Shown here piece after piece: positions 8,628-28,760 of a stretch of DNA of 64,000 nucleotides. The DNA comes from Ignavibacteria bacterium (GTDB lineage: Bacteria > Bacteroidota > Ignavibacteria > Ignavibacteriales > SURF-24): the NCBI GenBank assembly GCA_025612245.1, contig JAAXKQ010000013.1, positions 62,001 to 126,000 of the forward strand, given 5' to 3'. Both the position numbers and the translations under genes were made by a program. Under the pieces are notes generated by a model. The model did not search any database and had not been told where the DNA came from. It saw only the letters and a program-made list of their open reading frames with translations. The first letter of the stretch is position 1. Each line of letters begins with the position of its first letter.

Positions 8628-9698
8628 TTATTTTATGTAATCCAGCCAGCCGTAATTGTCTGGCTTTAGGCCGTACTGAATTGCAAGAATTTCATTAAAC
8701 AGATTTAATTCAAAATCATTGGGATCATCATGCTTAAATGTCATTGTCTTGTCCTTGTAGCTTAAAGTGCCTACAGAAGAAATGACAGCGGCAGTACCGG
8801 TCCCGAAGATTCCCAGGACATTTCCCTTATCGTATTCTTCGATTACTTCCTGCATGCTGATGAGTCGCTCGTTAACATTTATTCCTTTATCCCTAAGGAG
8901 TTCAAGTACAGTGGCTCTTGTAATTCCAGGAAGAATGCTTCCCGTCAGCTTCGGTGTGGCAATTTCGTCCTTAAATCTGACGAAAATGTTCATCGTGCCA
9001 ACTTCTTCAATGTATTTCTGTTCAACGCCATCCATCCACAACACCTGTGTAAAGCCCCTTTTCTGTGCTTCCTGTGTAGCCAGGAGGCTGGCGGCATAAT
9101 TTGCAGGTGTCTTGCAGTCTCCAAGTCCTTTCCTTACAGCCCTGACGTAATCATCCTGGGCTAGAATCTTTACGGGCTTAAACCCCTCCGGGTAATAAGC
9201 TCCAACAGGCGAAAGTATTATGAGAAGTTTATATGTCTTTGAGGGCTTTACGCCTAAAAGAGGATCGGAGCCATAGACAAAGGGACGAATGTAAAGAGAA
9301 GTCCCCTTCTTTTCAGGTACCCATTCCTTATCCACCTTGATCAGTTCTTTCAAGGCCTCAATCATAAACTCTTCATCTACTTCAGGAATACAAAGCCTGC
9401 GAGCAGAATTATTCAGACGCCTGAAATGCCTGTCGGGCCTGAATATGGCAATTTCGCCCGATTCTGTCTTGTAAGCCTTTAATCCCTCAAAAACAGCCTG
9501 TCCGTAGTGGAGTACCATTGTAGCCGGGCTGAACAGCATCGGCTCGTTTCCTCTGATTGTAGGATTGTGCCAGCCGTTAACCTCATCGTAATCCATTTCG
9601 AAAACATGGTCCGTAAAAATCCGCCCGAATTCAAGGTTTGCGGGCAGCTGGAGAGCAGTTTCTTGATGATCGTTGAGCAAGAAATTGATATTTTGCAT
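8628..9698 (-). CDS. ilvE: branched-chain amino acid aminotransferase
   Basis: Class IV PLP-dependent aminotransferase of 356 residues, catalysing the last step of Leu, Ile and Val synthesis with glutamate as donor. The BCAT pattern is clear: YGQAVFEGLKAY near the N-terminus, RPFVYGSDPLLGVKPS, the PLP lysine in GDCKTPANYAAS, VEQKYIEEVGTMN, and the phosphate-binding GIFGTGTAAVISSVG. The length and these motifs match the larger eukaryote/Bacillus-like BCAT form rather than the ~310-residue E. coli IlvE. An upstream GTG at 9710 is in frame. I prefer the ATG at 9698, preceded by GTGGTGA. It is divergent from the antiporter gene. Confidence 0.93.
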   Translation of the reverse strand: MQNINFLLNDHQETALQLPANLEFGRIFTDHVFEMDYDEVNGWHNPTIRGNEPMLFSPATMVLHYGQAVFEGLKAYKTESGEIAIFRPDRHFRRLNNSARRLCIPEVDEEFMIEALKELIKVDKEWVPEKKGTSLYIRPFVYGSDPLLGVKPSKTYKLLIILSPVGAYYPEGFKPVKILAQDDYVRAVRKGLGDCKTPANYAASLLATQEAQKRGFTQVLWMDGVEQKYIEEVGTMNIFVRFKDEIATPKLTGSILPGITRATVLELLRDKGINVNERLISMQEVIEEYDKGNVLGIFGTGTAAVISSVGTLSYKDKTMTFKHDDPNDFELNLFNEILAIQYGLKPDNYGWLDYIK

Positions 9699-10003
9699 AT
9701 AATTCACCACTTTTTATGGAATAATTATTCCGGCCCGGATATAGGCCAGAAATGCTATATGCATATTAAGCAATTTATTTGAAACTTTAAACTCAAATAC
9801 ACGGTAAGGCCCCCTGTTTTTTGCCTCATAGATGATGTATATACTATTCTTTCCGTGTTTTATTCATTACCTCAAAGATTCCCTGGCACAAAGCAAAAAC
9901 TTGCACAAAATCCGATTTATTTTTTTATATTGTTAATTATCTTAATATGGCCCTTCTAAAAAAAGATAAGCAAGATTTACTTCAACAAATTTAATACTGT
10001 ACC
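9699..10003. promoter_or_regulatory. divergent intergenic region between ilvE and antiporter gene
   Basis: About 305 bp separate two divergently read genes, so promoters for both must lie here. For the plus-strand gene, TTGCAC at 9901-9906 is followed 19 bases later by TATATT, a loosely spaced promoter-like pair. No operator-like repeat stands out. Confidence 0.35.
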
Positions 10004-11680
10004 ATGAGACTTGATGCAGAACAGCTTACAGTTTTCCTGACCAGTATCAGCATTATGCTGCTTATGGCCAGACTCCTTGGCGAGCTCTTCATTAAGTTAA
10101 AGCAGCCTGCAATAATAGGCGAAATACTGGCGGGCATTATACTGGGCCCCACTGTCTTGGGAGTGCTGATGCCTGGCTTTTCTGCATGGCTATTCCCTAA
10201 AACGCCCGAAATTCAGGTCGCCATGGACGGCATATTCTCTCTTGCCGTTATCATGCTTCTTTTAGTCTCGGGACTTGAGGTCGACCTGGCAGTTGTGGTA
10301 AGGCAGAGCAAGACGGCCTTTTTGACCAGCTTCATGGGAATTATATTCCCCTTTGCACTCGGCTTTGCACTGGCATATATGTACCCCAATTACTTCGGTA
10401 TCAATGACGAGAAAATGCGCCTTATCTTTTCTCTTTTTATGGGAACAGCCATGTCCATTTCGGCCCTCCCCGTAATAGCTCGCACGCTGATGGACCTGAA
10501 CTTAATAAGGACTGAAATAGGGCTTATCATACTTGCAGCAGCCATGTTCGGCGACCTGGCAGGATGGATCATCTTCTCTTTAATCCTGAGCATGATGGGA
10601 GCCGGAGGTGGAACGCTCGGCTTCTCAGATAAGATACTCCTTATACTTGGCTTTACGCTTTTCATGCTGCTAATAGGAAGAAAAATAGTCAACAAAATAT
10701 TCCCATATATTCAGAAATACTTCGTCCACCCGGGCGGAGTGCTGAATTTCATCTTCATTCTGGGCTTTCTTTGTGCCGCATTTACGGAATTTATTGGCGT
10801 GCATGCAATCTTCGGCGCCTTCATCGTAGGAATTACTATCGGCGACACGGCTCACCTAAGGGAAAAAACAAGAGAAATCATACACCAGTTTGTAACGAAC
10901 ATCTTTGCCCCACTTTTCTTTGTTTCAATAGGCCTGAGGGTTAACCTACTGACTAACTTCGACCCCCTGCTGGTCCTAATTGTTGTCTTCATTGCCTTTA
11001 CCGGAAAAGTAATAGGCTGCGGACTTGGAGCCTACTGGGGAAATATGTCCAGGCGCGACTCTCTGGTGATCGGTTTCGGCATGAACTCCCGCGGCGCAAT
11101 GGAAATTATTCTCGGATTGCTGGCCTTGCAGTTCGGACTGATACAGGACAAGGTTTTCGTGGCCCTGGTAATTATGGCCGTCTTTACCTCGCTTATCAGC
11201 GCTCCGGTGATGAATTATTTCCTGAAAGGCAGGATGGATTTTTCATTAAGGGACATTTTGGACAGGCAGATGTTTATTATCAGCAGCGCACCCGACAAGG
11301 ACTCTGTAATAAGGGAGATGGTCTCACTTGCAGCTAAGAAGTACAACATCGACGAAGAGACACTATTTCAACAGGTAAAAAGCCGCGAAGAACTAATCCC
11401 TACGGGAATCGCAAACTATCTCGCAGTACCGCACGCAAAAGCCAAAGTATCCAGACCCGTTGCCGTTGTGGCTTTTCATAAAGAAGGACTCGACTTTGAG
11501 GCTTCCGACAAACTTCCGGCAAAAGTTATACTGCTGCTCCTAACGCCTCAGGATAAAAGCGAACTGCAGCTGAAGCTGCTAGCTGAAATTGCCAACAAGT
11601 TCAAGGATAAAGATTCCGTCGAAAGCCTCATCAATACCGATAAGCCCGAGTCAATAATTTCCGCTTTGAAGAACGCCTGA
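10004..11680 (+). CDS. CPA2-type cation:proton antiporter with C-terminal PTS EIIA-like domain
   Basis: This 558-residue protein has an antiporter domain with about 12-13 membrane segments (residues ~8-405). It shows the CPA2 features IIGEILAGIILGPTVLG, MAMSISALPVIARTL-like text and FFVSIGLRVNL. After residue ~415 comes a soluble domain resembling fructose-type EIIA, including AVPHAKAKVSRPV with the candidate phospho-histidine and LLLLTPQDKSELQLKLLAEI. The fusion suggests that ion exchange is controlled by phosphotransfer or by binding of PTS components, which is inference. No Shine-Dalgarno is visible before the ATG. A terminator overlaps the stop codon. Confidence 0.9.
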   Translation: MRLDAEQLTVFLTSISIMLLMARLLGELFIKLKQPAIIGEILAGIILGPTVLGVLMPGFSAWLFPKTPEIQVAMDGIFSLAVIMLLLVSGLEVDLAVVVRQSKTAFLTSFMGIIFPFALGFALAYMYPNYFGINDEKMRLIFSLFMGTAMSISALPVIARTLMDLNLIRTEIGLIILAAAMFGDLAGWIIFSLILSMMGAGGGTLGFSDKILLILGFTLFMLLIGRKIVNKIFPYIQKYFVHPGGVLNFIFILGFLCAAFTEFIGVHAIFGAFIVGITIGDTAHLREKTREIIHQFVTNIFAPLFFVSIGLRVNLLTNFDPLLVLIVVFIAFTGKVIGCGLGAYWGNMSRRDSLVIGFGMNSRGAMEIILGLLALQFGLIQDKVFVALVIMAVFTSLISAPVMNYFLKGRMDFSLRDILDRQMFIISSAPDKDSVIREMVSLAAKKYNIDEETLFQQVKSREELIPTGIANYLAVPHAKAKVSRPVAVVAFHKEGLDFEASDKLPAKVILLLLTPQDKSELQLKLLAEIANKFKDKDSVESLINTDKPESIISALKNA

Positions 11681-12945: not shown

Positions 12946-14022
<1,077 letters not shown>

Positions 14023-14033
14023 TTATATTTTAT

Positions 14034-14525
14034 TTATTGCAGTTTTTTTATCAGCACTTCTTTCGTCTTGCTGTTTAGGAAGAGTTTCCTTCCTTTTGAT
14101 CCGCCAGTATCGCGGGATATAACCTTAATGCCTTCCTTTGCCAGCGTGCCAAGCGCCACTTCAATATTCCGGCGGCCTATTTTATCTTTGACTGCACTGT
14201 TGCTTGCAATGAGGCCTGCTCCGCCAAATACTTTGGCTCCAAGTGTTTTTATGTCAATTTTACTTTCTTCCATTTTTTGCACAAGCCTTATGATCGAACA
14301 GTCGGTATACCTGTAGGATTCGTCGCACCTTCTGCAGCATTCAGATCCGTAGCTGCAGCTTGGAAGCTGGCTATGTGTTATTCCGCATACGTCACTTTCT
14401 TTGCTGTAAAGGACGACTGAAACACACGAGCCCAGCACGGTTACAATTATCTCGGGCTTTCTTGAAATGTAATATTCCCCGGGCTGCAGGAAAACGACAG
14501 GCATGTCATTTTGTTTCAGTTCCAT
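14034..14525 (-). CDS. cheD: chemoreceptor glutamine deamidase
   Basis: CheD of 163 residues, which deamidates glutamines in chemoreceptors. The catalytic Cys and His are visible: C34 in LGSCVSVVLY and H51 in GITHSQLP. The AKVFGGAGL segment and the C-terminal GRKLFLNSKTKEV stretch fit the family. The start follows the cheR stop directly (TAG-ATG). CheD usually partners with the phosphatase CheC, which is missing here. The extra cysteines around residues 57-68 (SYGSECCRRCDES) are unusual. Confidence 0.93.
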   Translation of the reverse strand: MELKQNDMPVVFLQPGEYYISRKPEIIVTVLGSCVSVVLYSKESDVCGITHSQLPSCSYGSECCRRCDESYRYTDCSIIRLVQKMEESKIDIKTLGAKVFGGAGLIASNSAVKDKIGRRNIEVALGTLAKEGIKVISRDTGGSKGRKLFLNSKTKEVLIKKLQ

Positions 14526-15386
14526 CTATACTTTCCTGTATATGCTGGGGGCTACCTGTACAAGCGGAAGGTCCATATTAAAAAGCGATTCCGAGTGTCC
14601 GATAAAAAGGTAGCCTCCCTTTGCAAGTGACCTGCAAATCTTCTGTACTATTGCCTCCTGTGTCGGCCTATCGAAATATATGATTACATTCCTGCAGAAC
14701 ACGGCGTGGAATAGCTCTTTGATCTCATAGTTGTCGTGCATAAAGTTTACTCTCCTGAATTCAACGAGCCTGCGCAGTTCCGGCACAATTCTCACGAGCT
14801 TTTTTTCTTTTTCTTTGCTTTTGAGCAGATACTTCTTCTTAAATTCCATCGGAACGGGCTCAACTTTTTCTTCCTCATAGATTGCCAGCAAAGCTTTCTC
14901 CAAAACCTGCGTGGAAACATCCGTGGCAAGAATTCTGATCTGACTTAAATCCCTGAGATAATCCTTAAGCACCATTGCAAGCGTGTAGGCCTCTTCGCCG
15001 CTTGAGCAGCCGGCGCTCCATATTCTTATCCCGTTTTCGGTACCTACTTGGTACAGTCTCCTGAGTTCCGGGAGGGCATTTTCCACTAAAAACTGGAACT
15101 GTTTCGGCTCCCTGAAAAAGTCGGTTTTGTTGGTCGTAACAACGTCAATAAAATGAAATATCTCCGAAGAAGAAGACTCCCGGCTCAGGACCAGCTTGCA
15201 GTATTCCGTATAAGAACTGATTCCCAGCTCTTTTACCCTTTTCCTTAACCTCGCCTCAAGCATTATCTTTTTACCTGCAGGCATCTTGATTCCAACTTCC
15301 GAATATATAAAACTGCTAAGAGCCTCGAATTCTTTTGAAGTCAGGCTGTCACTTTGCTGGCCGGTTTCTGAGTGATATTTATTCAT
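14526..15386 (-). CDS. cheR: chemoreceptor glutamate methyltransferase
   Basis: CheR of 286 residues: an N-terminal helical domain (about 15-95) and an S-adenosylmethionine-dependent methyltransferase domain. IRIWSAGCSSGEEAYTLAM is the SAM-binding glycine-rich loop, ILATDVSTQVL the acidic loop, and FHAVFCRNVIIYFD and GGYLFIGHSESL are standard family stretches. It methylates receptor glutamates for adaptation. The adjacent receptor gene ends in an aromatic-x-x-aromatic pentapeptide that could tether this enzyme. It is 94 bp from the receptor gene, with a hairpin in the gap, and abuts cheD. Confidence 0.95.
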   Translation of the reverse strand: MNKYHSETGQQSDSLTSKEFEALSSFIYSEVGIKMPAGKKIMLEARLRKRVKELGISSYTEYCKLVLSRESSSSEIFHFIDVVTTNKTDFFREPKQFQFLVENALPELRRLYQVGTENGIRIWSAGCSSGEEAYTLAMVLKDYLRDLSQIRILATDVSTQVLEKALLAIYEEEKVEPVPMEFKKKYLLKSKEKEKKLVRIVPELRRLVEFRRVNFMHDNYEIKELFHAVFCRNVIIYFDRPTQEAIVQKICRSLAKGGYLFIGHSESLFNMDLPLVQVAPSIYRKV

Positions 15387-15480: not shown

Positions 15481-17187
15481 CTAAAACCTTTCAAAGTCGG
15501 CATCCAGCTTGTCGCCTTCACTCAGGTCATATGCAAAGCCTGAGGATTTTGCCGTTCTCTGCGGCTTAAGCTGCACCGTCCTGAGCTGAGTATTGCCGTT
15601 GTTGTTGTTGTTTCCGGCTTTATTTGCCTGAGGCAACGTCTTATGAGCAACGGTTTTGCCCGACTTTTTCTGCAGGTGGTCATCTACTCTGAAAAACTCA
15701 ATTGTACTCTGGAGCTGCTCGGCCTGGCTTGAGAGCTCTTCTGCCGTTGAGGCCATTTCCTCTGCTGCCGATGCATTCTGCTGAATTACCTGGTTCAGCT
15801 GCTGGATTGCGCTGTTAATCTGCTCGGCTCCCGATTTCTGCTCGCTGCTGGCAGAAGTAATTTCCTGTACAAGCTCGCTCGTTTTTTGAATGTCCGGGAC
15901 TATCTTTGTGAGCATTTCTCCGGCCTTTTCTGCAATTTTTACGCTTGAGGAGGACAGTGTGCTGATTTCAGCTGCTGCCAGCTGGCTTCTTTCGGCCAGT
16001 TTTCTTACCTCGCTTGCAACAACGGCAAACCCTTTGCCGTGCTCTCCGGCGCGTGCGGCTTCAATAGCGGCGTTCAATGCCAGGAGGTTTGTCTGGCGTG
16101 CAATTTCCTCGATGATGGATATCTTGCCTGCAATATCTTTCATCGCCTCAACTGTCTGCGCAACGGCTATGCCGCCTTCCTTTGCGTCCTCCGCACTCTG
16201 AAGAGCTATTTTTTCGGTCTGACGCGCATTTTCAGCATTCTGGTTTATATTGCTCGTCATCTCTTCCATCGAGCTCGAAGCTTCCTCAGCTGCGGCGGCC
16301 TGTTCTGTGGAACCCTGCGAAAGCTGCTCGCTGCTCGAACTGAGCTCCTGGCTTCCCGAGGTTACGTTATCTGCAGCCGACTTTACATTCTCCACTACGC
16401 TCTTGAGCTTATCGACCATCACGTTGAGGGCGCTTGCAAGCTGCCCTATTTCATCTTTCTGGTCCAAGTTTATTTGCTGCCTTAAGTCGCCGCCTGCTAC
16501 GGCTTTTGAAAATTCTAATCCCTGAACGAGCGGCCTGCTTATGAGGCGGGATATGAATACTGCCAGGCTGAAGGACAAAATGACACTGATAAGGAGTGTA
16601 ATCAACAATGTTTTTGAGATTGAACTTGTTGTCGCCGTATTCTGATCCGAAGCTTCGGAGGCCATATGGTTATTCAGTTCCACCCACTCCTCGATTACTT
16701 TCTGCAGATCATGTGAAACCGGCTTCATTTCGCCATTCATAAATGCAAGCGCCTGCGCATCATCATTTGCCCTGCTTAAGGAGTAGAGTTTCAACAGCTT
16801 CTCATGAAACAGTTTGTACTGTTCCATGAATCTTCCATGTATGTCCCGTTCCTTATCCGAATCTATTCTTTTTTCGCAGGAGCCGGCATTCTTGTTTATA
16901 CCGCTATAGTATTCATCAATCTGGCTGATTGTCTGCTCAATTTCGTCTTTGTTGTTTGCAATAATCAGGTCCCTTATGCTGCACCTGACCCTGTGGAAAA
17001 GCTGCTGCAGGTCGCCCAGTTCCACCAGCGTAACGGTATTTTTCTCATACATTTTTGTATAGCTTGCATCAATAGTTTGCAGATTGGTTATACCCATATA
17101 ACCAATAAATATTGCAATCAGAGTCAGCAGCGAAAAACTAAGGATTAGTTTTACGCCAATTTTTAAGTTTATGAACCATTTCAGCAT
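15481..17187 (-). CDS. membrane chemoreceptor (methyl-accepting chemotaxis protein)
   Basis: A 568-residue transmembrane receptor. TM1 lies at about 11-33, followed by a periplasmic four-helix-bundle-type sensor at about 34-191, TM2 at 192-213, HAMP at 214-266 and a long signalling hairpin. The tip is canonical, with [20 protein letters not shown] and then [16 protein letters not shown], about 362-398. The C-terminal ~70 residues are a flexible Asn/Gly/Lys-rich linker ending in DFERF, which resembles the pentapeptide that tethers CheR and CheB in other receptors. The ligand cannot be read from sequence. It sits between cheW and cheR. Confidence 0.95.
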
Positions 17188-17714: not shown

Positions 17715-19811
17715 CTATCTATTTTGAAATAATTTCTTTTCCATCTCTTCCTCTCTCTTTATCAGAGTAGGAATGTCCAGTATCAAAGCAAGTGTACCGT
17801 CACCAAGTATAGTCGCCCCGGAAAACCCGTCTGCGTCTTTATAAAACTTTCCAAGGGATTTTATTACCGTCTGATGTTCTCCAATTACACTGTCAACGAC
17901 AAAGCCGATCTTGCTGCTGTTGGCGCTTGACTTATTGCCATCATTGCTTGTTATTACCACCTGCTCAATTTCCATGGATTGGCCCGTTATATTAAACCTT
18001 TCCCTGAGCGGAATAAAAGGAACTAACTCCCCGCGGACTTTCACCAGATGCATTCCGTTTTCGTTTTGAATTTCGCTTCTATGCATTTCAATGCATTCCT
18101 CTACAGCTGAAAGCGGAATAATGAAGTACTCATCGCTGATCTTAACCAAGAGGCCTTCGATGATTGCCAGCGTCAAAGGAAGTTTTAGTGTGATGGTGGT
18201 CCCTTTGCCGCTTTCGCTGGTTATTTCTATGTTTCCTCTTAAGGATTCAATTGTCTTTTTTACCACGTCCATTCCAACACCGCGCCCCGAGATGCTGGAG
18301 ACCTTTTCAGCGGTGGAAAATCCGGGGGCAAAGATGAGGTTATATAGTTCCTTATCACTCAGGCTGCTTTCCTTTGTAATAATCCCCTTTTCAACTGCTT
18401 TTTTACGTATGGCTTCTCTGTTCAGTCCCGCGCCGTCATCTGTGATTCTGATGATGACACTTGAGCCGGCGTACCCGGCAGAAAGTGTTACGCTTCCGGT
18501 TTCATTCTTCCCGCAAGCTATCCTCGTATCCGAAGCCTCAATACCATGGTCTATGCTGTTTCTGATTAAATGAACGAGCGGATCATTAAGCTTGTCAATT
18601 ACGTTTTTGTCTAATTCCGTGTCCTCGCCTTCCGTAAACAGGTCGATTTTTTTGCCCAGTTCCTGCGACAAATCCCTGACCAGCCTTTTAAACCTGTTGA
18701 AGGTGGATCTTATCGGGACCATCCGGATATTTAAGGCATTGTCCCTGAGCTCACAGGTAAGCCTTTCCACTTCTTCGGAAATTAAGATGAGTTCGGGGTC
18801 ATTCTTTTGGGCCGAAATCTGCGAAAGCCTGGCCTGCACGGTTACAAGCTCACCAACAAGGTTCACCAGGTAGTCCAGCTTTTCGGAACCGACTTTAATG
18901 CTTTTTGCATTTCCCGTGTCGCTGCATTTCTCTGTTTTGAGGTTAGCCGGTAAGGCGGCCTTTTCAGTCTTAGGTAACTTCGCCTTTTCAGAAAGCAGTT
19001 TTTTCAATTCCCTGGTTATATTTGGAGAATTTTCAGAAAGGATGTCAAGGATTTCCCGGCTGCAATCATTAAGACCAACCGGGGTGCCTGTTTCCTCAAT
19101 TACCTCTACTTTGAGTTCACATTCATCTTCAACAAAAATGAACACATCCTTAACCGAGTCAATGCCTCTGGAGGTCCTTAGAAAAATGTTCCAGCTGAGG
19201 TAGCATTTTTCAGGCTCCAAAGTTTCAAGGGGCGGTATCTGGTTCGTAAGCATGCACGGATAACATTCACCCAAATCCCTCAGCTCATTTATAAGTAAGA
19301 GCGGATTTGTACCGTTTTTCAGTATGCCTTCTGAAGGCTTAAACTTAATAAGATAATCTTCCGTCCGGCTTTCTTCCACTGCTTCAGAGACAATGCAGGT
19401 TTTGACTTTTTCCGGTAAACCCGCTTCATTAAAACCGAGGAGTATCTTACGGAATGATTCTACAATTTCAGAGGTTTCCTCGCTACAGCTACTGCCGTCA
19501 TTATTCAGCAGCTTCTCTATCTGATCCCGTGCCCTTAAGGTCAAAGTAATTATATGATTGTCTGCTTTAATTTTTCCGTTCCGGATCAGGTCAAAAACAT
19601 TTTCTATGTCATGTGTAAACCGGGAGATTTCATCATAATCAAACATTCCGGCCGATCCTTTGATCGTGTGGAGTATCCGGAAGGTCTTCGATATGAGCCC
19701 CTCATCCGAAGAATCACTTTCCAGCTCAAGGAGTGATTCTTCAAGCTGGCCGAGAAGTTCTCTTGTTTCTTCTAAAAACGCTTCTTTTAAATGGTCTAAC
19801 AATTTTCTCAC
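17715..19811 (-). CDS. cheA: chemotaxis histidine kinase CheA
   Basis: CheA of 698 residues with the full layout. P1 Hpt has H48 in FRILHTIKGSAGMF. A P2-like region follows at about 145-250 (DYLIKFKPSEGI, LLLINELRDLG). P3 dimerisation helices lie at about 305-365 (LDYLVNLVGELVTVQARLS). P4 ATPase has HLIRNSIDHGIEAS, DDGAGLN and GRGVGMDVVK. P5, CheW-like, runs from about 565 to the end. It autophosphorylates under receptor control and passes phosphate to CheY and CheB. The phosphodonor regions look intact. It is preceded by cheY after a 37-bp gap. Confidence 0.96.
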   Translation of the reverse strand: MRKLLDHLKEAFLEETRELLGQLEESLLELESDSSDEGLISKTFRILHTIKGSAGMFDYDEISRFTHDIENVFDLIRNGKIKADNHIITLTLRARDQIEKLLNNDGSSCSEETSEIVESFRKILLGFNEAGLPEKVKTCIVSEAVEESRTEDYLIKFKPSEGILKNGTNPLLLINELRDLGECYPCMLTNQIPPLETLEPEKCYLSWNIFLRTSRGIDSVKDVFIFVEDECELKVEVIEETGTPVGLNDCSREILDILSENSPNITRELKKLLSEKAKLPKTEKAALPANLKTEKCSDTGNAKSIKVGSEKLDYLVNLVGELVTVQARLSQISAQKNDPELILISEEVERLTCELRDNALNIRMVPIRSTFNRFKRLVRDLSQELGKKIDLFTEGEDTELDKNVIDKLNDPLVHLIRNSIDHGIEASDTRIACGKNETGSVTLSAGYAGSSVIIRITDDGAGLNREAIRKKAVEKGIITKESSLSDKELYNLIFAPGFSTAEKVSSISGRGVGMDVVKKTIESLRGNIEITSESGKGTTITLKLPLTLAIIEGLLVKISDEYFIIPLSAVEECIEMHRSEIQNENGMHLVKVRGELVPFIPLRERFNITGQSMEIEQVVITSNDGNKSSANSSKIGFVVDSVIGEHQTVIKSLGKFYKDADGFSGATILGDGTLALILDIPTLIKREEEMEKKLFQNR

Positions 19812-19848: not shown

Positions 19849-20214
19849 CTAGGGCAGTACCTTTTTGACTACTGCAACCAGCTGTTCCGGCTTGAAGGGT
19901 TTAATTATCCATCCCGTGGCCCCTGCCTGCTTCCCTTCCATTTTTTTTTCATTCTGCGATTCTGTAGTCAGCATCAGTATTGGAACAAACTTGTGTGCCG
20001 GACTTTCCCTGATTTTCCTGATGAGCGCAATGCCGTCCATATTCGGCATGTTCAGGTCCGTAATAACCAGGTTCACATTACTTGCCTTCTTAATCTTCTC
20101 GAGGCCGTCTTTGCCGTCTGATGCCTCAATTACATTGTAGCCTGCTTCGCTTAAGGTAAAGCTCACCATCTGGCGTATGCTCGATGAATCATCTACTGTT
20201 AATATTGTTTTCAT
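19849..20214 (-). CDS. cheY: single-domain response regulator CheY
   Basis: A stand-alone receiver of 121 residues with acid pocket D8/D9, phospho-acceptor D53 in VITDLNMPNMDG, a switch Thr in LMLTTES and the conserved Lys in IKPFKPEQ. Its place next to cheA makes it the likely CheA target. No flagellar switch gene is in the window, so its output is unknown: it could act on pili, on gliding or on another regulator. Its start directly follows the STAS gene stop. Confidence 0.93.
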   Translation of the reverse strand: MKTILTVDDSSSIRQMVSFTLSEAGYNVIEASDGKDGLEKIKKASNVNLVITDLNMPNMDGIALIRKIRESPAHKFVPILMLTTESQNEKKMEGKQAGATGWIIKPFKPEQLVAVVKKVLP

Positions 20215-20542: not shown

Positions 20543-22360
20543 TTAAAACAGTTCTATATTGTCGCCCAGTGGTTCCTCTTCGGCCTGAAGCCGGGTGTTC
20601 TCCTGGCTTTGGCTTACCAAAGCCCGATGGACTTTTCTTTCACTGTTCATCGTATAAGATGAAGAAACGTCTCCCAAGAACTCCCTGTCTTCACTGCTTA
20701 TCAGTATTCCTGCTTTAGGTGCAAGTTCAGCGTATTCCTCCAGCACATACTGAAGCGATGAAATTTCACTGAGCACATCGTCCGTAAAGCTGAGGCCGCT
20801 TCTTATTTCATCCAGTTTTTTTAACATCTCCCCGATGGAAAAATCCAGCTCGCTTTTCAGACCCTCCAGGCTTAAGTTGCTTTTTTGAATGCCTAGAAGA
20901 GATTTTTTCAGCGACCCGTCGACCGCCTTAAATTCAGAAAGGATTGCCGCCTGATCGTTGTCATTATTCTGACTGAGGTTTTCTGTGTCGCTTTGTACCT
21001 TGGTAAGCCCCTCCGAAATCATTAAGGACAATTCCTTTGCCTCTAAAGACAGGTTTTGGATTGCCTCGGATAAAACTCCAAGTCCTGCCCCTTCGCTTCC
21101 TATGTGAGCGGCTTTTATCCTTGCGTTAAGGGCTATAAGCTCAATTTCCGCGCCGATTTCTTCAATCTCATACACAAACCTGTTTGAATCGGCAATCGTC
21201 CTTGCCAGGGAGTTTATGGCTGAAGTAAGGCTTTCATTTGTATTGTGGTTCCTGCTCAGGGATTCAGAAAGATGCGACAGGTTCTCCTCAACTTTCTGTA
21301 TGCCGCTTCCGGCCTCGCCGCTTGAGATAAATGAGTCCGACTGCGCGGCAATTTCATGGATGTTGGCACGGATCTCCAGGTTATTGGATTTTATGCTTTC
21401 TGCCGTAGAGGCAATTTCACCCTTCGAATGCAGTACCTGTGCCAGTTCAAGCTGGCAGACAATTATCAGCTTTTTAATTGACTGCAGGTCATCGGTTTTC
21501 GACAGGCTGCTTTCCGGATGGCTGCTGGCATTGCCCAGATTTTCCTTTACGTGCTCCAGCTGCTGTCTTATTATGTCCTGTATCTGGATGAAAGTAATGA
21601 GGTTATTTATGTCTTTCGATATCCTGGAAGACAATTCATGGATCACGCCGGCCTTCTTAAAAGAAGAGCTGCAGCTTAGCTGATACTGCTCCAGGCTGTG
21701 TTTTGCATTCTCAACGATGAGCCTCGATTCCTTTTTTTGTTCATCGCCAAGGGCTTTGATCTTTGCTATTAAACTTATTACGTCTCCGACCAGGATTTTG
21801 GATTTATGCTTTATCTGCAGCGCTTTTTCATTTATGACCTCCGATAATTGTTCCACGTTCTCGGCTATTGTGCTGAAACCTGCGCTGTCAGTCCTTAGTC
21901 TTGCATTTTCAATTTTAGTAGAAATCCCGAGTATCCTTAAGTGCCTAACAATTTTGTTGTAGCTTTCAAGAGTGGAGATAATTGAAAGGAGGTTACTTTT
22001 TATGCCCAGCAGATTCTTTTCCTTTGTGGCTGATTCTTCTTCCAGGCGATGGAATATGAGGTTCAGCTGCCCGATTGTAGAAGAAAGAAACTTAAGTTCG
22101 CTGTTGAGTTCTTCGTGTGAAATGAGCCCCGTTATTTCAATTATGGTTTTGACAACTTTCTTTGAAATGAGATAGCTTTCCTGAAGAAGCCTCCCGAAAC
22201 GGCAGTAGTCTTCCGTTAAAAGGTCTATTGCGCGGGAAACTTTGCCTTCAATGCCCCTTACGGGCAACAGGTCAAGAGTTCCATCCCGGGGGCAGAAGAC
22301 CGGAAGAGCCGGAGCATTTTGCAGGCTGGCATTCAGATTCTCATTTATCAAGTTTATCAA
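20543..22360 (-). CDS. cytosolic helical protein with two degenerate chemoreceptor-tip segments
   Basis: A 605-residue protein without membrane segments, almost entirely heptad-rich helix. Two stretches resemble chemoreceptor hairpin tips: about 148-176 (KIENARLRTDSAGFSTIAEN) and about 405-440 (IELIALNARIKAAHIGSEGA). In the second, residues normally Glu, Arg and Glu in NAAxEAARAGE are Lys, His and Ser. Between them, about 258-270, FIQIQDIIRQQLEH contains D262 and Q266, the DxxxQ spacing of the CheZ active site. The C-terminus is NIELF. The start is TTG at 22360 with GGAG upstream; no other start is near. It is the first gene of the che run after a 197-bp gap. An adaptor, a decoy receptor or a phosphatase are all possible. 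Confidence 0.85.
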   Translation of the reverse strand: MINLINENLNASLQNAPALPVFCPRDGTLDLLPVRGIEGKVSRAIDLLTEDYCRFGRLLQESYLISKKVVKTIIEITGLISHEELNSELKFLSSTIGQLNLIFHRLEEESATKEKNLLGIKSNLLSIISTLESYNKIVRHLRILGISTKIENARLRTDSAGFSTIAENVEQLSEVINEKALQIKHKSKILVGDVISLIAKIKALGDEQKKESRLIVENAKHSLEQYQLSCSSSFKKAGVIHELSSRISKDINNLITFIQIQDIIRQQLEHVKENLGNASSHPESSLSKTDDLQSIKKLIIVCQLELAQVLHSKGEIASTAESIKSNNLEIRANIHEIAAQSDSFISSGEAGSGIQKVEENLSHLSESLSRNHNTNESLTSAINSLARTIADSNRFVYEIEEIGAEIELIALNARIKAAHIGSEGAGLGVLSEAIQNLSLEAKELSLMISEGLTKVQSDTENLSQNNDNDQAAILSEFKAVDGSLKKSLLGIQKSNLSLEGLKSELDFSIGEMLKKLDEIRSGLSFTDDVLSEISSLQYVLEEYAELAPKAGILISSEDREFLGDVSSSYTMNSERKVHRALVSQSQENTRLQAEEEPLGDNIELF

Positions 22361-22557
22361 AATCCATCTCCGGGTTAACCCGTTAATTAGAAAGAAAATT
22401 TCTTTGACAAATATTCGATTATTATTCTGCTAATTTAATACAGAACATTGGCCATTTTGAGTACCTAAGGTTAGGTATTCTTCCCCCGCAGTAGCGCCAA
22501 AAGCTCCTGTTTTTATGGCTTTTTATGAATAGGTACCCCTAAAGGAAACGGGGGCAT
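22361..22557 (-). promoter_or_regulatory. putative promoter region of the che operon with NarL-type sites
   Basis: This 197-bp gap separates the NarL-type regulator gene from the double-tip gene. TACCTAA-GG-TTAGGTA at 22462-22477 is a perfect 7-2-7 palindrome that differs from the NarL-family heptamer consensus TACYYMT by one base per arm. ATAGGTA (22529-22535) and TACCCCT (22534-22540) match the heptamer exactly but overlap. TTGTCA on the minus strand (22410-22405) could be a -35 element. A 12-bp palindrome CGGGTTAACCCG at 22371-22382 lies just before the ribosome-binding site. Confidence 0.45.
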
Positions 22558-23205
22558 TCAGACCAGCTTTTCTCTTACGGCAAGATTAACCAGCTCAACC
22601 GTATTTTTGACGCAAAGCTTCTTCATAATGTTCTTCCTGTGCTCGGCCACGGTAAAATAGCTGATATAAAGCTTTTCTGAAATCTGCTGGCTGGTTAAAC
22701 CGGACACAATGAGCTTAAGGACGTCTTTTTCTCTTTTTGTCAGTGGAAGGATTTCACTTTTTGTCTGCGCCGACTGCAGTGAATGCACATAGTTTGATAC
22801 CAGTATGTTCTGGACGTCCTTATTCAGGTAACGGCCTTCGCTGATGACAGTATCAATTGCCAGGAACAGCTCGTCCATGTCGGACATTTTCAGCATATAG
22901 CCGTTTGCTCCGGCTGCAATTGCATCTTTTATGTGGTCTGCATCGTTGAACATTGTAAGTATGATGATTTTAATTTCCTTGCTGAATTTCCTGATCTCTT
23001 TTGTCATCTCAATGCCATTTAATATCGGCATGTTTATGTCAATTATTGCCACCTCCGGCTTAATACTCTTTATGCCTTCAAGGGCTTCCAGGCCGTTACT
23101 GGCCTGCCCGGCGACAATATATCTGTTTTCCGACTCAATAACCGAGGTCAGTCCATCCCTCAGAATTTTATGGTCATCGGCAATAAATATCCTGATCTTG
23201 CTCAT
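22558..23205 (-). CDS. NarL/LuxR-family response regulator
   Basis: A 215-residue regulator. The receiver domain has D10/D11 and phospho-acceptor D56 in AIIDINMPILNG. The C-terminal LuxR-type HTH starts at LTKREKDVLKLIVSG, with recognition-helix region SYFTVAEHRKNIMKKL. It is expected to bind DNA as a dimer after phosphorylation by the upstream HisKA_3 kinase, whose stop its start overlaps by four bases (ATGA). A NarL-type palindrome lies 80 bp past its 3' end, upstream of the che operon. Target genes are otherwise unknown. Confidence 0.94.
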   Translation of the reverse strand: MSKIRIFIADDHKILRDGLTSVIESENRYIVAGQASNGLEALEGIKSIKPEVAIIDINMPILNGIEMTKEIRKFSKEIKIIILTMFNDADHIKDAIAAGANGYMLKMSDMDELFLAIDTVISEGRYLNKDVQNILVSNYVHSLQSAQTKSEILPLTKREKDVLKLIVSGLTSQQISEKLYISYFTVAEHRKNIMKKLCVKNTVELVNLAVREKLV

Positions 23206-25025
23206 AATGCCTCATTTACAGGGAATAATATGTTAATAGTGGTGCCTTCATTTAGCTGCGACTCTATCTGGAAGTTTCCGCTTATCAGTGCGGCCCTTTC
23301 CCTCATGTTGCGCAATCCATAACGGTTTGTTCCAAACGTATCTCCCGAAATGTTTAATCCTACTCCGTCGTCTTTAATAATCAGGTTCAGACAGCTTTCC
23401 GTCCTGTGCAGACGGATTTGAATATTCCTGGCCCCGGAGTGCTTTATTATATTGTTTAATGCTTCCTGGACTATCCTGAAGATTACAATTTTTGCTTTTT
23501 CCGAAAGATCAGTAAAATTGTCATTTGTAGTGTACTCAATAAACAGGCCGATATTGCCCGAAAGCTCCTGTATTAGGGTTTTTAGTAAAACGTTAATGTC
23601 GCTTTTTTCGAAGTTTGCCGGGCGGATTGCATATATGGCTTCCCTCAGCTCCTTGCCGGCTTTTACGAGTAATTCCTTCGTGTTTGTTATGTATTTGTTT
23701 TCCGATCTATATGTCTTTTCAAAAAGCTCAATATTGAACTTCGCCACTGTTAATATCTGCCCAATACTGTCGTGCAGCTCCTTTGAAATCCTTCTCCTTT
23801 CCTGCTCAAGCTCGTCTAAAAGGAAGGAGGATCTGTCCTTCTGGTCCTCCAGATCTTTGTTGAATTTCTCCGCCTTATAGTGCTCAGTTACATTTTCTAT
23901 CAGGTTGACAACCCTGCCGGCACTTGAAGAGCTGGTGTTGACGGAATAAAAATGAAAGACCAGGACTACCATGCCCGGGTTTTCATAGCCTGGAAACTCA
24001 TCGGGTTCAATAAAAACCGGCTGCGTCGTAAAGACACCACCCTGCTTAAAAATTTCTTCGATTTTTTCCATGTAGCTGTTCTTCAGAAAAATCTCATCCG
24101 TAAAGATGCAGTAGCCTTCCTTGTACCTGATGCCGAGGTCTGCGGCAGCCTTGTTGCTATATGTACAGGAACCGTTTTCCAGGAATATTCTTATCGGCAG
24201 GACCGACAGGTCAATTAAGGACTTCAGTTCCAGCGTCCTTTCATTTACGCGCACTTCAAGCTCAGACTGAATTTTTCTGAGCTCCTCTTCGGTTTCTTTT
24301 CTCCTGGAGACGTCCCTTACTATAAATGTAATTTTATCCTTTTCATTCAGGCGCCACCTGGAATAGCTGAACTCAATAAAAATTATTTTTCCGTCCATCC
24401 TTCTTGCTTTGCATTCAATGGTTTCCCCGTTTTCATCGTTTTTAAGCAGCATCCCGGCAATTGACTGCCCATCTTCCATAAGACTCAGGAAATTTTTTCC
24501 TGCAAGTTCCAATTCACTGCACCCGAAAAGTGTTTCTGCCTTTTTGTTGAATGAGTTAACCCTGCCATCCTGGTCCGTTATGAGGACGGCATCCATTGCT
24601 TTTTCAAAGAGCGTCCTGTATTTAACCTCACTTTCCAGGATTTTCAGCTCCGACTGGTATTTAAAGAGTGCAATTTCAATTGTAGAGCGGAGGTCCTTTA
24701 GTTCAAAGGGCTTAATTATAAACCCGTATGGAGCAGTTTGCTTTGCCCTGTCAAGTGTGGCTTCATCAGTGTGAGCAGTCAGATATATAACCGGAATATT
24801 GTATTTCTCTTTTATGAAGCCGGCCAAAGACACGCCGTCCTGCTCCCCTTTAATGATAATATCCATCAGTATGAGTTGAGGTTTTTCTGCCTCAATCATT
24901 TTCAGGCAGTCTTCACCGTTGGAAACTATCCCGGTTACTTTATAGCCCAGCGCCTGCAGCCTCAGCTTTATATCCAAAGCAACAATTGCCTCATCCTCCA
25001 CGACCAGTATTTTCTCGCTATTCAT
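23202..25025 (-). CDS. sensor histidine kinase: receiver-PAS-PAS-like-HisKA_3-HATPase
   Basis: A soluble kinase of 607 residues. The N-terminal receiver has D55 (LILMDIIIKGEQDG). A PAS domain at about 135-245 (ITDQDGRVNSFN) is followed by a second PAS-like region at about 270-385. The NarX/DesK-type HisKA_3 carries H418 in RRRISKELHDSIGQ, and HATPase_c has NNIIKHSGARNIQ and GTNRYGLRNMRERA. The kinase type matches the NarL-like regulator encoded directly downstream with overlapping ends, so the two form a cognate pair. The N-terminal receiver lets another kinase control this one. No membrane segment is seen. Confidence 0.93.
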   Translation of the reverse strand: MNSEKILVVEDEAIVALDIKLRLQALGYKVTGIVSNGEDCLKMIEAEKPQLILMDIIIKGEQDGVSLAGFIKEKYNIPVIYLTAHTDEATLDRAKQTAPYGFIIKPFELKDLRSTIEIALFKYQSELKILESEVKYRTLFEKAMDAVLITDQDGRVNSFNKKAETLFGCSELELAGKNFLSLMEDGQSIAGMLLKNDENGETIECKARRMDGKIIFIEFSYSRWRLNEKDKITFIVRDVSRRKETEEELRKIQSELEVRVNERTLELKSLIDLSVLPIRIFLENGSCTYSNKAAADLGIRYKEGYCIFTDEIFLKNSYMEKIEEIFKQGGVFTTQPVFIEPDEFPGYENPGMVVLVFHFYSVNTSSSSAGRVVNLIENVTEHYKAEKFNKDLEDQKDRSSFLLDELEQERRRISKELHDSIGQILTVAKFNIELFEKTYRSENKYITNTKELLVKAGKELREAIYAIRPANFEKSDINVLLKTLIQELSGNIGLFIEYTTNDNFTDLSEKAKIVIFRIVQEALNNIIKHSGARNIQIRLHRTESCLNLIIKDDGVGLNISGDTFGTNRYGLRNMRERAALISGNFQIESQLNEGTTINILFPVNEAL

Positions 25026-25040
25026 ACCCTTTCCCTACGC

Positions 25041-28000
25041 TCACAATTTAAATTTAATCTTAAACTTAACCCCGTCCTTATTCGAAATTTCCAGGCTTCC
25101 GTCAATTTGATCCACCAGGTTATGCACCAGCTGAAGGCCCAGTGTGTTGGTTTTGCTTATCTCGAAGCCCCGGGGGAGGCCTCTTCCATTATCGGCAATT
25201 TCCAGGCAGGCAGAACTATCTCCATTCTGTTTTACCGAGACCGTCAGAACCCCGGAATCCACGTCATGGAAGGCATACTTAAGGGCATTTGAAATCAGCT
25301 CATTTACTATCAATCCGCACGGAATTGCAGTATCTATGGGAAGGTCAATTGAATCAATTGCAATATTAAAAGTAATTCTTTTTCCATCAGTCGTATAAGT
25401 CCTCTGCAAGTACATAACCAGCTCGGAAATATATTCCTTGAAATTAACAATGGAAAGGTCTTTGGACTGGTAGAGTCTCTCATGAATCAGCGCCATTGCT
25501 TTAACCCTGCTCCGGCTTACATTGAACGCTTCCATGAGCCTCGGATCGGTGATGTTATTTGTCTGAAGATTCAGCAGGCTTGAGATTATCTGCAAATTAT
25601 TTTTAACCCTGTGGTGTATCTCTTTAAGCAGCACTTCCTTTTCTTTCAATGAGCTGATAATCTGGTTTTCTTTTTGCTTCTGGTCGGTGATATCGGCAAA
25701 AAAGCCTACAATTGCCCTTCCCTCAGGCAGCAGCAGTTCAGCTACGCTTGCGCTAACCGGGAAAACGGAGCCATCTTTCCTCATGCCGCAGTACGTAAAG
25801 CTTTCCTCAGTCTGATCCCCTTTTACCTTCTTTAAGAGATAATTCATTACCTTTGCCCTGTCACCCGGGGCAACCCCGTCCAGGACTGAGCCTCCCTTGG
25901 GTTCTTCAGGATTGCTGTAGCCGAAAATTTTCATAAACGACCGGTTTGTAATCTGTGTCACGCCATTGACTGATATGCGTATACCGACAGGGGAATTCTC
26001 AAAGATAGTCCTGAACCTTTCCTCGCTTTCGGCTATTGTTTTCTCCATCTTCCGGCGTTCGGTCACATCGAAGAATACACAGTGTGTCTGTATAAAGTTA
26101 CCCGTATCGTCGTAGGCTACTTTACCTGAGAACTGGACGGTAATAATTTTTCCGTCCTTTGCCAGGATGTCAAATTCCCTGTCTTTTGGCATTCCTTTGA
26201 GAATAAAGTTACGGTACGATGAAGTGAAATTTTTCTTCATATCTCCGGTCAGGAAGTGTCCCATCCACTTGCCTTTTACCTCATCTTCCAGGTAACCCAG
26301 CTTTTGCAGCCATGTATAGTTTACGTCAATAATATTTCCCACTATGTCCAGCGAAAGATATCCTACAGGCGCCTTGTCGTAAAGGAGCTTGAATCTTTCT
26401 TCGCTTTCTTTCAGGACTTTTTCAGCATTTTTTGATTCGGTTATGTCTTCTTTAATGGCTATGTAGTTTGTAATAATCCCGGAAGTGTTCTTGATCGGGG
26501 AAATCACGCAATATTCCCAGTAGAGCTCATTGTTCTTTTTCTTGTTCAGGAGCTCACCCGTCCAGGTGCTCCCCTCGTTTAACCTGTCCCACAACTGCCT
26601 GTAAGTCTCAGCAGGTGTTTTGCCTGACTTCAGTATCCTGGGGTTTTGGCCAATTGCTTCCTTCATCAAATAACCGGTCGTCACACAGAACGTGGGGTTT
26701 ACGTACTCTATGTTTCCATCCAGGTCAGTAATGACGATTGAGACCGGGCTTTGTTCTACCGCAACGGAAAGTTTCTTCAGCTGGTCTTCCACCAAGATCC
26801 TTTCCTGCATCTCTTTTTGCAGGTTCTTTTCAACCGTTTTTAAATCCTTTGTTCTTCCGGATACAATTTCCTCCAGCTTCCGGTTTTCATGTTCCAGAAC
26901 TTCCGAGGCTTGCTTTAAGAGCGTAATGTCGTGGCTCATTCCAACCGTTCCTGCTACCTGGCCCTCCTTGTTGAAAATCGGTACTTTTATCGTTTCATAG
27001 AGCCTTTTATTGCCATTTTTATCCATTATGAACTCTTCCACACCAAGCTCTTCTCCCGATTTTAGTACTTTAAGATCGTTTGCCATAAAAGCCCGTGCGA
27101 ATTCCGGTTCCCATATTTCAAGATCCGTTTTATTCATAATCTCTTCTTTTGGCATATTGCACATGGAAGCAAAGATTTTGTTTACGGCCTTATACCTGCC
27201 GTTACAATCCTTCATCCATGCCATATCGGGAATTGCATCCAGAAGCACGTTACGGACTTCAAGAAGCTCATAGTGCATTTTACTCAGCTCTACCAGGTCC
27301 TCGTCCGATTTCTTAATTTTCAGGTTCAGCTTTTCTTCTTCCGAACTATGAATTTCATTTTCCCTTGCAATTGCAAGGATGTCTGCAATAGAAACAAGAA
27401 ATGCCTCCTCTTCGGTCCACCATTTTCTCAGCTTCCGGCTCCCGCAGATAATTGCGCCGATGTATTTGTTTTCAACCATCATCGGAATGATCATTGCAGA
27501 GTTCAGTCCAGATGGAAGATAGCTTCCTTTTAGTATTCCAAAAGTACTGCTGACCTCGTTTATATTGTCAATGATTATGGAATTGCCTGAGAGCAGGTAT
27601 TCAAGGCCCGACCTGCCAATGCCTTCCAGAACGCAGTTTTTCCCGCTGCTCTGTCCGTTAAGCCTGCAGTCGTTGCTGCAGATTTTCTCGTCTTCAAAGC
27701 ATATCCTCATCTCTTCAATTTCCAGGACCCTTGAAATATCACCTGCAACTGCTTTTGTCAGTTCCGAAAGCTTTGTGTTCTTTACGACCAGCTTTATGAA
27801 CTTGCTGAGCATCTGGTTTGCAAGGAATCTCTTGTTATTTCTCTGGCTGAGTTCTTCCCTTACCCTATCGTTCTTTTTTCTTTCTATTGCATAGATGAGT
27901 GATTTCCAGAGGGATTCTTCCGTAATATGATTTTTGGACAGGTAATCACTTGCGCCATAGCTCAGTGCGGTTTTACCAAGATCGATGTCGTTATTGCCGG

Positions 28001-28247
28001 TCAAAACCACTACCGGGATGTCACTGCCGTATGTATTCAGCTTTCGCAGGGTCTCCAGTCCAAAGGAATCCGGAAGGTTCAGATCCAGAATTATCACTTC
28101 CGGCGGGTCTTCCGACAGGCTTTTAATTCCGCCTGCAAGCGTGGAGGAATGCCGTATACCTTCGAGGGAAATATAGTCCGAAAGGTAGGCCTGTATTAAA
28201 TTAAAGTCGGGTTTATTATCTTCAATAATTAAGATCTTTTTATCCAT
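25041..28247 (-). CDS. large multi-sensor histidine kinase: receiver-GAF-PAS(x4)-HisKA_2-HATPase
   Basis: A soluble protein of about 1068 residues. The receiver comes first (PPEVIILDLNLPDSFGLE), then GAF (about 155-310, containing the Cys-rich ICSNDCRLNGQSSGKNC), a PAS (AIPDMAWMKDCNGRYKAVN), a coiled coil, and three further PAS domains (VITDLDGNIEYVNP; GYLSLDIVGNIIDVNY; GIRISVNGVTQITN). The kinase core is of the HisKA_2 type with EIHHRVKNNLQIISSLLNLQ. The Cys cluster in GAF is unusual and could bind metal or sense redox state (inference). I place the start at the ATG at 28247; one at 28271 is also in frame. It ends 15 bp before the next kinase gene. Confidence 0.92.
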   Translation of the reverse strand: MDKKILIIEDNKPDFNLIQAYLSDYISLEGIRHSSTLAGGIKSLSEDPPEVIILDLNLPDSFGLETLRKLNTYGSDIPVVVLTGNNDIDLGKTALSYGASDYLSKNHITEESLWKSLIYAIERKKNDRVREELSQRNNKRFLANQMLSKFIKLVVKNTKLSELTKAVAGDISRVLEIEEMRICFEDEKICSNDCRLNGQSSGKNCVLEGIGRSGLEYLLSGNSIIIDNINEVSSTFGILKGSYLPSGLNSAMIIPMMVENKYIGAIICGSRKLRKWWTEEEAFLVSIADILAIARENEIHSSEEEKLNLKIKKSDEDLVELSKMHYELLEVRNVLLDAIPDMAWMKDCNGRYKAVNKIFASMCNMPKEEIMNKTDLEIWEPEFARAFMANDLKVLKSGEELGVEEFIMDKNGNKRLYETIKVPIFNKEGQVAGTVGMSHDITLLKQASEVLEHENRKLEEIVSGRTKDLKTVEKNLQKEMQERILVEDQLKKLSVAVEQSPVSIVITDLDGNIEYVNPTFCVTTGYLMKEAIGQNPRILKSGKTPAETYRQLWDRLNEGSTWTGELLNKKKNNELYWEYCVISPIKNTSGIITNYIAIKEDITESKNAEKVLKESEERFKLLYDKAPVGYLSLDIVGNIIDVNYTWLQKLGYLEDEVKGKWMGHFLTGDMKKNFTSSYRNFILKGMPKDREFDILAKDGKIITVQFSGKVAYDDTGNFIQTHCVFFDVTERRKMEKTIAESEERFRTIFENSPVGIRISVNGVTQITNRSFMKIFGYSNPEEPKGGSVLDGVAPGDRAKVMNYLLKKVKGDQTEESFTYCGMRKDGSVFPVSASVAELLLPEGRAIVGFFADITDQKQKENQIISSLKEKEVLLKEIHHRVKNNLQIISSLLNLQTNNITDPRLMEAFNVSRSRVKAMALIHERLYQSKDLSIVNFKEYISELVMYLQRTYTTDGKRITFNIAIDSIDLPIDTAIPCGLIVNELISNALKYAFHDVDSGVLTVSVKQNGDSSACLEIADNGRGLPRGFEISKTNTLGLQLVHNLVDQIDGSLEISNKDGVKFKIKFKL

Positions 28248-28760
28248 AATCCGTTCAAATTCTTTTAACACTCAAATACTCAAATCACGCGTATTCTTTA
28301 ATTGGTCGTGTATTTTTTTTTGTAAACTCTGCCGGCAGTTTTTCTCACGAATTCTTCTAAAAATGAAGCATCCCAGGTGCCAGCCGGCTCTTCTTTTCTA
28401 AATCTGCTTTTATAAATGAATTTGGGTTAAAAACTGAATTTTGCTTCCCGTAAGAAGCATTGAATGCAATTTCCTGACGAATTGAATTTTTCCCCGGACA
28501 GGAATTCAGAACTGTCGCTATCACTATACGTATAGTTAAGTCCTAAATTATCGGCATATTTTTGCAGAATTCAATATGCAGCACCTGGAAAATCCTGTAA
28601 GGAATATTCTGATTTTTTTGTAAGGTTTTCCTTACAAAATCTTATTGCATAATTCACGGAAAAAGCCCGGGAGGGGTGAATTCGTGCGATGTTTTTTAGT
28701 TTTAAGTTTTTTAGTTAAATTTGAAAGACTAAAGCTAAAGGAAATTAAAGAAGGACAAAT
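28248..28760. promoter_or_regulatory. divergent regulatory region between kinase operon and orphan mlaE
   Basis: About 510 bp, AT-rich and without a convincing reading frame, lie between divergent genes, so it must contain two promoters. TTTTGTAAGG-TTTT-CCTTACAAAA (28616-28639) is a perfect 10-bp-arm inverted repeat. A second TGTAAGGA lies at 28596-28603. ACTATACGTATAGT (28523-28536) is a perfect 14-bp palindrome, of which a few are expected by chance. None is followed by a T-run, so operator is more likely than terminator. Confidence 0.45.

Follow-up and report, generated by a model that had tools for sequence, protein, structure and literature searches.

The window (the whole 64,000-nt stretch of Ignavibacteria bacterium contig JAAXKQ010000013.1 analyzed here) carried a che cluster on its minus strand, and the first gene of this cluster encoded a 605-residue protein, called below the double-hairpin protein, with its TTG start at position 22360 (Table 1). 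The initial annotation had placed this gene correctly; its strand, unstated there, was minus. The C-terminus of the transmembrane receptor of the cluster resembled the xFxxF CheR tethers that class 34H receptors carry in Geobacter Type 2 che clusters. Window positions 22558-28271, directly upstream of and co-directional with the double-hairpin gene, encoded a NarL-type response regulator and a pair of receiver-PAS histidine kinases, one of the HisKA_3 and one of the HisKA_2 type, and similar regulators flanked several related loci.

Table 1. Genes and features of the che cluster in the window
Feature	Position	Strand	Evidence or remark
Double-hairpin protein gene, 605 aa, TTG start, stop included	20543-22360	minus	ORF and family alignment
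Ribosome-binding site GGAG, 7 nt 5' of TTG	22368-22371	minus	sequence
E-x-x-F-L-x-x-G family cluster, residues 49-56	22193-22216	minus	T-Y-C-G in window copy
Hairpin 1, residues 82-279	21524-22117	minus	AlphaFold2 models and receptor fold matches
Tip 1, residues 141-176	21833-21940	minus	family consensus LRMLxISTKIESARLGxxxxGFxxLAxDVEKLS
CheZ-like motif, residues 257-271, FIQIQDIIRQQLEHV, D262 and Q266	21548-21592	minus	putative catalytic
Hairpin 2, residues 288-549	20714-21499	minus	model and fold match; Pfam MCPsignal at 376-522
Tip 2, residues 400-441, NARIKAAHIGSEGAGLGVL	21038-21163	minus	Pfam and profile comparison
Degenerate counterpart of catalytic motif, half 2, residues 522-530	20771-20797	minus	family GIxVHE
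Near-invariant YTMxSERxIH, residues 569-578	20627-20656	minus
C-terminal peptide LGDNIELF, residues 598-605	20546-20569	minus	candidate CheY-docking peptide, by analogy
STAS-like protein, 90 aa	20215-20487	minus	Pfam STAS_2 23.4 bits, below cut-off
CheY, proposed substrate	19849-20214	minus	receiver motifs TVDD, TDLNMP, LTTES, and IKPF intact
CheA kinase	17715-19811	minus	profile match
CheW, single-domain, 160 aa	17221-17703	minus	profile match
Transmembrane receptor of cluster	15481-17187	minus	C-terminus DFERF (CheR-tether-like)
CheR	14526-15386	minus	profile match
CheD	14034-14525	minus	profile match
CheB	12946-14016	minus	from position, length, and homologous gene order

Both halves of the double-hairpin protein were related to chemoreceptor signaling hairpins. 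The tip-2 half was matched by Pfam MCPsignal just above its cut-off (34.7 bits, cut-off 34.6; E 2e-8; best stretch at residues 376-522), as it was in 75/75 aligned relatives, while tip 1 gave no score in the single-profile HMMER search. In profile-profile comparison with 42 receptor segments, however, each half matched with its tip in register (half 1, P 8e-8; half 2, P 5e-15), and half 1 matched half 2 at P 4.5e-11 across 219 columns; the reversed controls of these comparisons gave P 0.0016 or worse. This match over 219 columns points to a tandem duplication as the origin of the two halves. The window protein matched no Pfam domain besides MCPsignal, and hence no sensor domain; some true MCPs are likewise without a sensor domain or membrane anchor. 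PHROGs and NCBIfam returned nothing useful for this protein. Its maximum 19-residue hydropathy was 1.25, with no strong transmembrane segment, in agreement with the membrane-free chain described initially.

AlphaFold2 modeling of the full chain with 75 sequences gave pLDDT 84 and pTM 0.65, and antiparallel hairpins were predicted at both tips. Half 2 of the full model overlaid MCP 9a65_B at 2.3 Å rmsd over 263 residues, while half 1 modeled alone (pLDDT 88) had receptors as its top matches (2ch7_B: Z 14.1, 2.6 Å, 252 residues), and the best 12 Foldseek matches listed for it were all receptors. Segment 105-473 of the full model overlaid the single-chain four-helix bundle 6z0c_D (2.3 Å, 190 residues), from which the hairpins would be packed side by side with their tips at one end; this arrangement is suggested by one model (pTM 0.65), read via alignment ranges rather than coordinates. 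Since receptor-profile scores and predicted hairpins were both present at the two segments, the claim of the initial annotation that one chain holds two receptor-like tips stood, with the tips now at about residues 141-176 and 400-441. A chance resemblance of the tips was ruled out by family conservation, profile comparisons, and fold.

The tips were then described in Tsr numbering at N381, E385, R388, E391, and F396, conserved positions that serve trimer and CheA/CheW contacts in receptors. Tip 2 retained the N381 equivalent, and the residues replaced among the 75 relatives were as follows: E385 by K/R in 73, R388 by H in 43, and F396 by L in 73. Tip 1 kept E385 (74/75), R388 (65/75), and F396 (73/75) and had S in place of N381 (66/75). 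Among the tip-2 changes noticed initially in the window copy, Glu to Lys, Arg to His, and Phe to Leu thus proved to be family-wide, whereas the change of the second Glu (E391) to Ser fell at a position variable across the family. Being fixed in the family, the tip substitutions look functional rather than the product of decay.

The most conserved stretch of the family was not a tip but residues 257-271 (consensus SMQFHDITRQQxEHV), which the initial annotation had passed over and in which Q259, D262, Q266, and H270 were invariant among the 75 aligned relatives. The pattern Q-x-[HQ]-D-x-x-x-Q was kept in 88/88 full-length relatives checked, down to 20% identity, and was found in 0/1,838 non-family ORFs from the same loci. 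The active motif of CheZ is DXXXQ with AXXF(Y)Q directly before it (PMC7750401); the stretch before DXXXQ was SMQFH in the family consensus and FIQIQ in the window, a partial match to AXXF(Y)Q, while same-phylum CheZ proteins had S/A-LQVQDIT-S/A-QQ at the motif and two of them had SLQFHDIVTQ. In hhalign comparisons, half 1 matched (i) 26 CheZ proteins at P 3.3e-6, the D and Q of the motif being aligned to those of CheZ, and (ii) an enlarged CheZ set at P 6.5e-7, and the half-1 motif helix alone matched CheZ at P 5.1e-8, the D and Q being in register in both of these latter cases. Ordinary receptors matched CheZ at P 0.001-0.003, and all controls of the CheZ comparison (half 2, ordinary receptors, and reversed profiles) gave P 2.9e-4 or worse. 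Coiled-coil noise was rejected as the source of the CheZ likeness, the reversed and ordinary-receptor controls being more than two orders weaker. Relative to the hydrophobic face, the D was at 102-135 degrees and the Q at 148-175 degrees in the family, compared to 102-117 and 142-169 degrees, respectively, in CheZ; the D and Q share one exposed helix face in the family, as in CheZ.

In single-profile and structure searches, Pfam CheZ was matched weakly by 18/75 relatives (best E 7e-4), the window protein had no Pfam CheZ match listed up to E 10, and CheZ was not among the solved-structure matches listed by sequence or fold, with receptors ranking first for half 1. Had a whole library of families been searched without bias, the CheZ profile match of half 1 would have counted as borderline. 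Tip 1 and the motif were 105 residues apart, as were tip 2 and the degenerate counterpart of the motif (family H526 and E527); this equal spacing fits a duplication followed by loss of one site, the DXXXQ site being lost in the second half. Equal distance from the tip was also the ground on which the cluster at residues 49-56 is expected to lie opposite D262 in the antiparallel hairpin.

When a genome collection was scanned with the family alignment, at least 351 relatives were confirmed, and 80 loci were kept. Among the matches listed, most relatives belonged to Geobacterales and other Desulfuromonadales, Ignavibacteria/Bacteroidota, Desulfovibrionales, or Syntrophales; Kuenenia and Nitrospirae had one match each. 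Of 59 genomes from the genus, family, and order of the home genome, seven had full-length relatives, with aligned identities of 20-28%. The home genome had about twenty other MCPsignal matches and no second copy of the double-hairpin protein. The prevailing gene order was family protein, STAS-type ORF (about 115-120 aa), cheY, and cheA: cheY lay at most 900 bp downstream in 76/81 loci, accompanied by cheA in 71/81, and at least seven of the ten exceptions to this order lay near contig ends. STAS was matched by all five intervening ORFs tested from other loci, four of them above a Pfam cut-off. The synteny with STAS and cheY, raised for orthologues by the initial annotation, was thereby confirmed.

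Other CheY phosphatases were sought in the carrier genomes. The home genome had one CheZ, which adjoined another cheA on contig C36 and not on the window contig, and no match anywhere to CheC/CheX (profiles PF04509 and PF13690). CheZ was found in 6/7 same-order relatives, always on a different contig from the double-hairpin gene, and the Geobacterales checked had CheX elsewhere in the genome instead of CheZ. The supposition that family-carrying genomes are devoid of CheZ was therefore false, CheZ or CheX being present elsewhere in most genomes checked, and the family is no genome-wide replacement for CheZ. Within its own cluster, the double-hairpin protein was the only candidate phosphatase identified.

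At the C-terminus, YTMxSERxIH and GDN-V/I-ELF were nearly invariant across the family, and the ELF peptide was present in four copies in L144, two in L118, and a second copy in L125. Several same-phylum CheZ proteins repeated SQDEIDALF at the same place; the CheZ proteins of L149, L151, L156, and L157 had several C-terminal SQDEIDALF-like copies, possibly for multivalent CheY docking. By analogy with CheZ, a CheY-docking role is plausible for the conserved C-terminal peptide of the family. Homology of the two tails is not claimed: the spacing of YTMxSER and of YxxxxxRQ in CheZ looked alike by eye, but hhalign gave P 0.77 (no significant similarity). A CheR tether of the NWETF kind was considered as another possible role for the peptide; compared to such a tether, the family ended in N-V/I/F-E/D-LF, usually without an aromatic residue at the second position, and internal copies were present in L118 and L144.

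With an invariant, in-register DXXXQ exposed on its helix and a gene located beside cheY-cheA, the double-hairpin protein is probably a CheY-P phosphatase built on a single-chain receptor-like pseudo-dimer, and the neighboring CheY would be its substrate. In CheZ, Gln147 and an acidic residue are inserted into the CheY site, and this glutamine-plus-acid chemistry is established (PMC3035606). The proposed mechanism would run as follows: (i) the two receptor hairpins of one chain would pack side by side as an intramolecular pseudo-dimer with tips at the same end; (ii) the catalytic site would lie some 15 heptads from the tip, where the second helix of hairpin 1 exposes it; (iii) D262 would reach into the active site of CheY, there to pair with the CheY lysine, and Q266 would position the attacking water; (iv) hairpin 2, as a duplicate with a decayed site, would leave one site per chain; (v) the C-terminal GDN-I/V-ELF would probably capture CheY, as the CheZ tail does; and (vi) the altered tips may either bind the CheA/CheW layer or be held away from it. 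Several points count against a phosphatase: the window copy has no Pfam CheZ match, the CheZ profile match is of the borderline kind described above, the fold searches list receptors and no CheZ, the tail is without significant CheZ similarity, the window copy has drifted near the motif relative to the family (F260I, H261Q, and T264I, along with E49T), and a separate CheZ or CheX could serve the neighboring CheY in trans.

Instead of a sensor, the initial annotation had proposed one of three roles: modified scaffold, inhibitor of CheA, or CheY-handling factor. Of these, CheY handling gained support from the CheZ-type DXXXQ and the cheY-cheA adjacency, a scaffold role is possible, and CheA inhibition was unsupported by anything tested. 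CheY handling need not mean catalysis: the motif helix and tail might bind CheY-P as a sink, with the body holding it near or away from the array. The same motif and synteny evidence would serve for such a binder, as would the repeated ELF peptide of some members and the drift around the motif in the window copy, but binding alone is not expected to fix the catalytic D and Q of CheZ in every full-length relative, and we consider a noncatalytic sink unlikely. It is quite unlikely that the protein is an array scaffold whose tips join CheA/CheW layers or plug arrays, the DXXXQ being incidental. Two receptor hairpins in a soluble chain encoded in a che operon are in keeping with a scaffold, and there are precedents in DosM, with two signaling domains per chain (PMC7534058, PMC9321776), and in natural single-chain MCP-like proteins (PMC4692393); however, the tip residues are changed family-wide, the CheW of the cluster is single-domain rather than the triple CheW of F9, the model suggests both tips at one end rather than at opposite ends as in DosM, and the most conserved stretch would be left unexplained. 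Control or inhibition of CheA by a modified receptor through degenerate tips is very unlikely: tip 1 keeps E385/R388/F396 and tip 2 keeps N381, so that each could mimic part of a receptor dimer, but the catalytic-type motif lies about 15 heptads away from the tips. A drifted ordinary cytoplasmic chemoreceptor is highly improbable despite the MCPsignal match and the alpha-proteobacterial clusters of related type, in which atu0514, the one chemoreceptor gene that the cluster carries, has the number just ahead of that of cheS (PMC12654446), given that there is no sensor domain, the tip changes are fixed rather than random, and conserved non-receptor motifs dominate.

The putative phosphatase was also compared with five known systems. 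Like CheZ (PF04344), it had a helical hairpin, an A-x-x-F-Q-D-x-x-x-Q-like motif whose D and Q share one exposed face of the helix, and an acidic-hydrophobic C-terminal peptide that is repeated in some members of both families; unlike CheZ, it was more than twice as long, had duplicated receptor-type hairpins in one chain, carried the site in one half only, and fell below the CheZ profile threshold. CheT of Sinorhizobium/Agrobacterium, compared by description, is likewise a DXXXQ che-cluster protein outside the CheZ family, and its cluster also has a STAS protein (CheS) and CheD (PMC12654446); CheT is reported to have no significant homology to known chemotaxis proteins (PMC12654446), whereas the body of the double-hairpin protein is receptor-derived. 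DosM, an F9-class double signaling domain receptor, is also a soluble chain with two receptor signaling domains, but it serves as an array scaffold, has its tips at opposite ends, and partners a triple CheW, while the tips of the double-hairpin protein are degenerate and predicted to share one end, and the protein carries a CheZ-like motif. Natural single-chain MCPs and the engineered Tsr~Tsr share the tandem fusion of two receptor subunits in one chain (PMC4692393); the family could overlap the natural ones, for which, unlike the family, no catalytic motif has been reported (PMC4692393). MCPs (PF00015) share the hairpin fold and tip register, and the family differs from them by two tips, replaced key tip residues, absence of a sensor, and extra DXXXQ and tail motifs.

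Double tips (DosM and natural single-chain receptors) and non-CheZ DXXXQ phosphatases (CheT) are thus already known separately; in the open-access literature, no description was found of two receptor hairpins joined with a DXXXQ site, and nothing relevant was found on receptor-like or CheZ-fused phosphatases. A Geobacter genome analysis noted the absence of cheZ from these bacteria, the need for a CheZ-independent mechanism, and genes of unknown function in their Type 2 che clusters (PMC2577667). Within the che clusters of Geobacter relatives, the family members are encoded immediately ahead of STAS-cheY-cheA and are a concrete candidate for signal ending there. A testable role is also suggested for one kind of natural single-chain receptor-like protein, with the warning that profile-called MCPs may be enzymes.

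The CheZ search also brought up single-tip proteins, some 450 aa long and belonging to a different lineage of the phylum (L174:571-1917, L186:1363-2742, and L187:1384-2745), each with an N-terminal hydrophobic region, a receptor tip, QFQDVxRQ, and IELF at or near the end; those of L186 and L187 additionally had YVSxGQRAVH, spaced like YTMxSERxIH, and that of L174 matched only MCPsignal above a Pfam cut-off. Judging from these cousins, the combination of a receptor hairpin and a CheZ-like site may be more widespread. It is conceivable, though rather doubtful, that a CheY phosphatase arose from receptor hairpins, that CheZ itself may come from a hairpin of this kind, that the double-hairpin family and its cousins are surviving intermediates, and that the receptor-like conformation of the pseudo-dimer could gate the phosphatase.

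Variant arrangements were seen at three further loci: (i) in L127, the family protein was split between the hairpins into two same-frame ORFs (9271-10206 and 10216-11154), which may reflect misassembly, gene breakage, or a two-chain form occurring naturally; (ii) in L153 (1-2217), a CheZ motif opened a frame running into CheA-like sequence, a possible CheZ-CheA fusion of at least 739 aa within the locus (open frame 1026 aa); and (iii) in L147 (1357-2133 and 2182-2745), tandem cheZ-like genes lay ahead of a cheA-like ORF.
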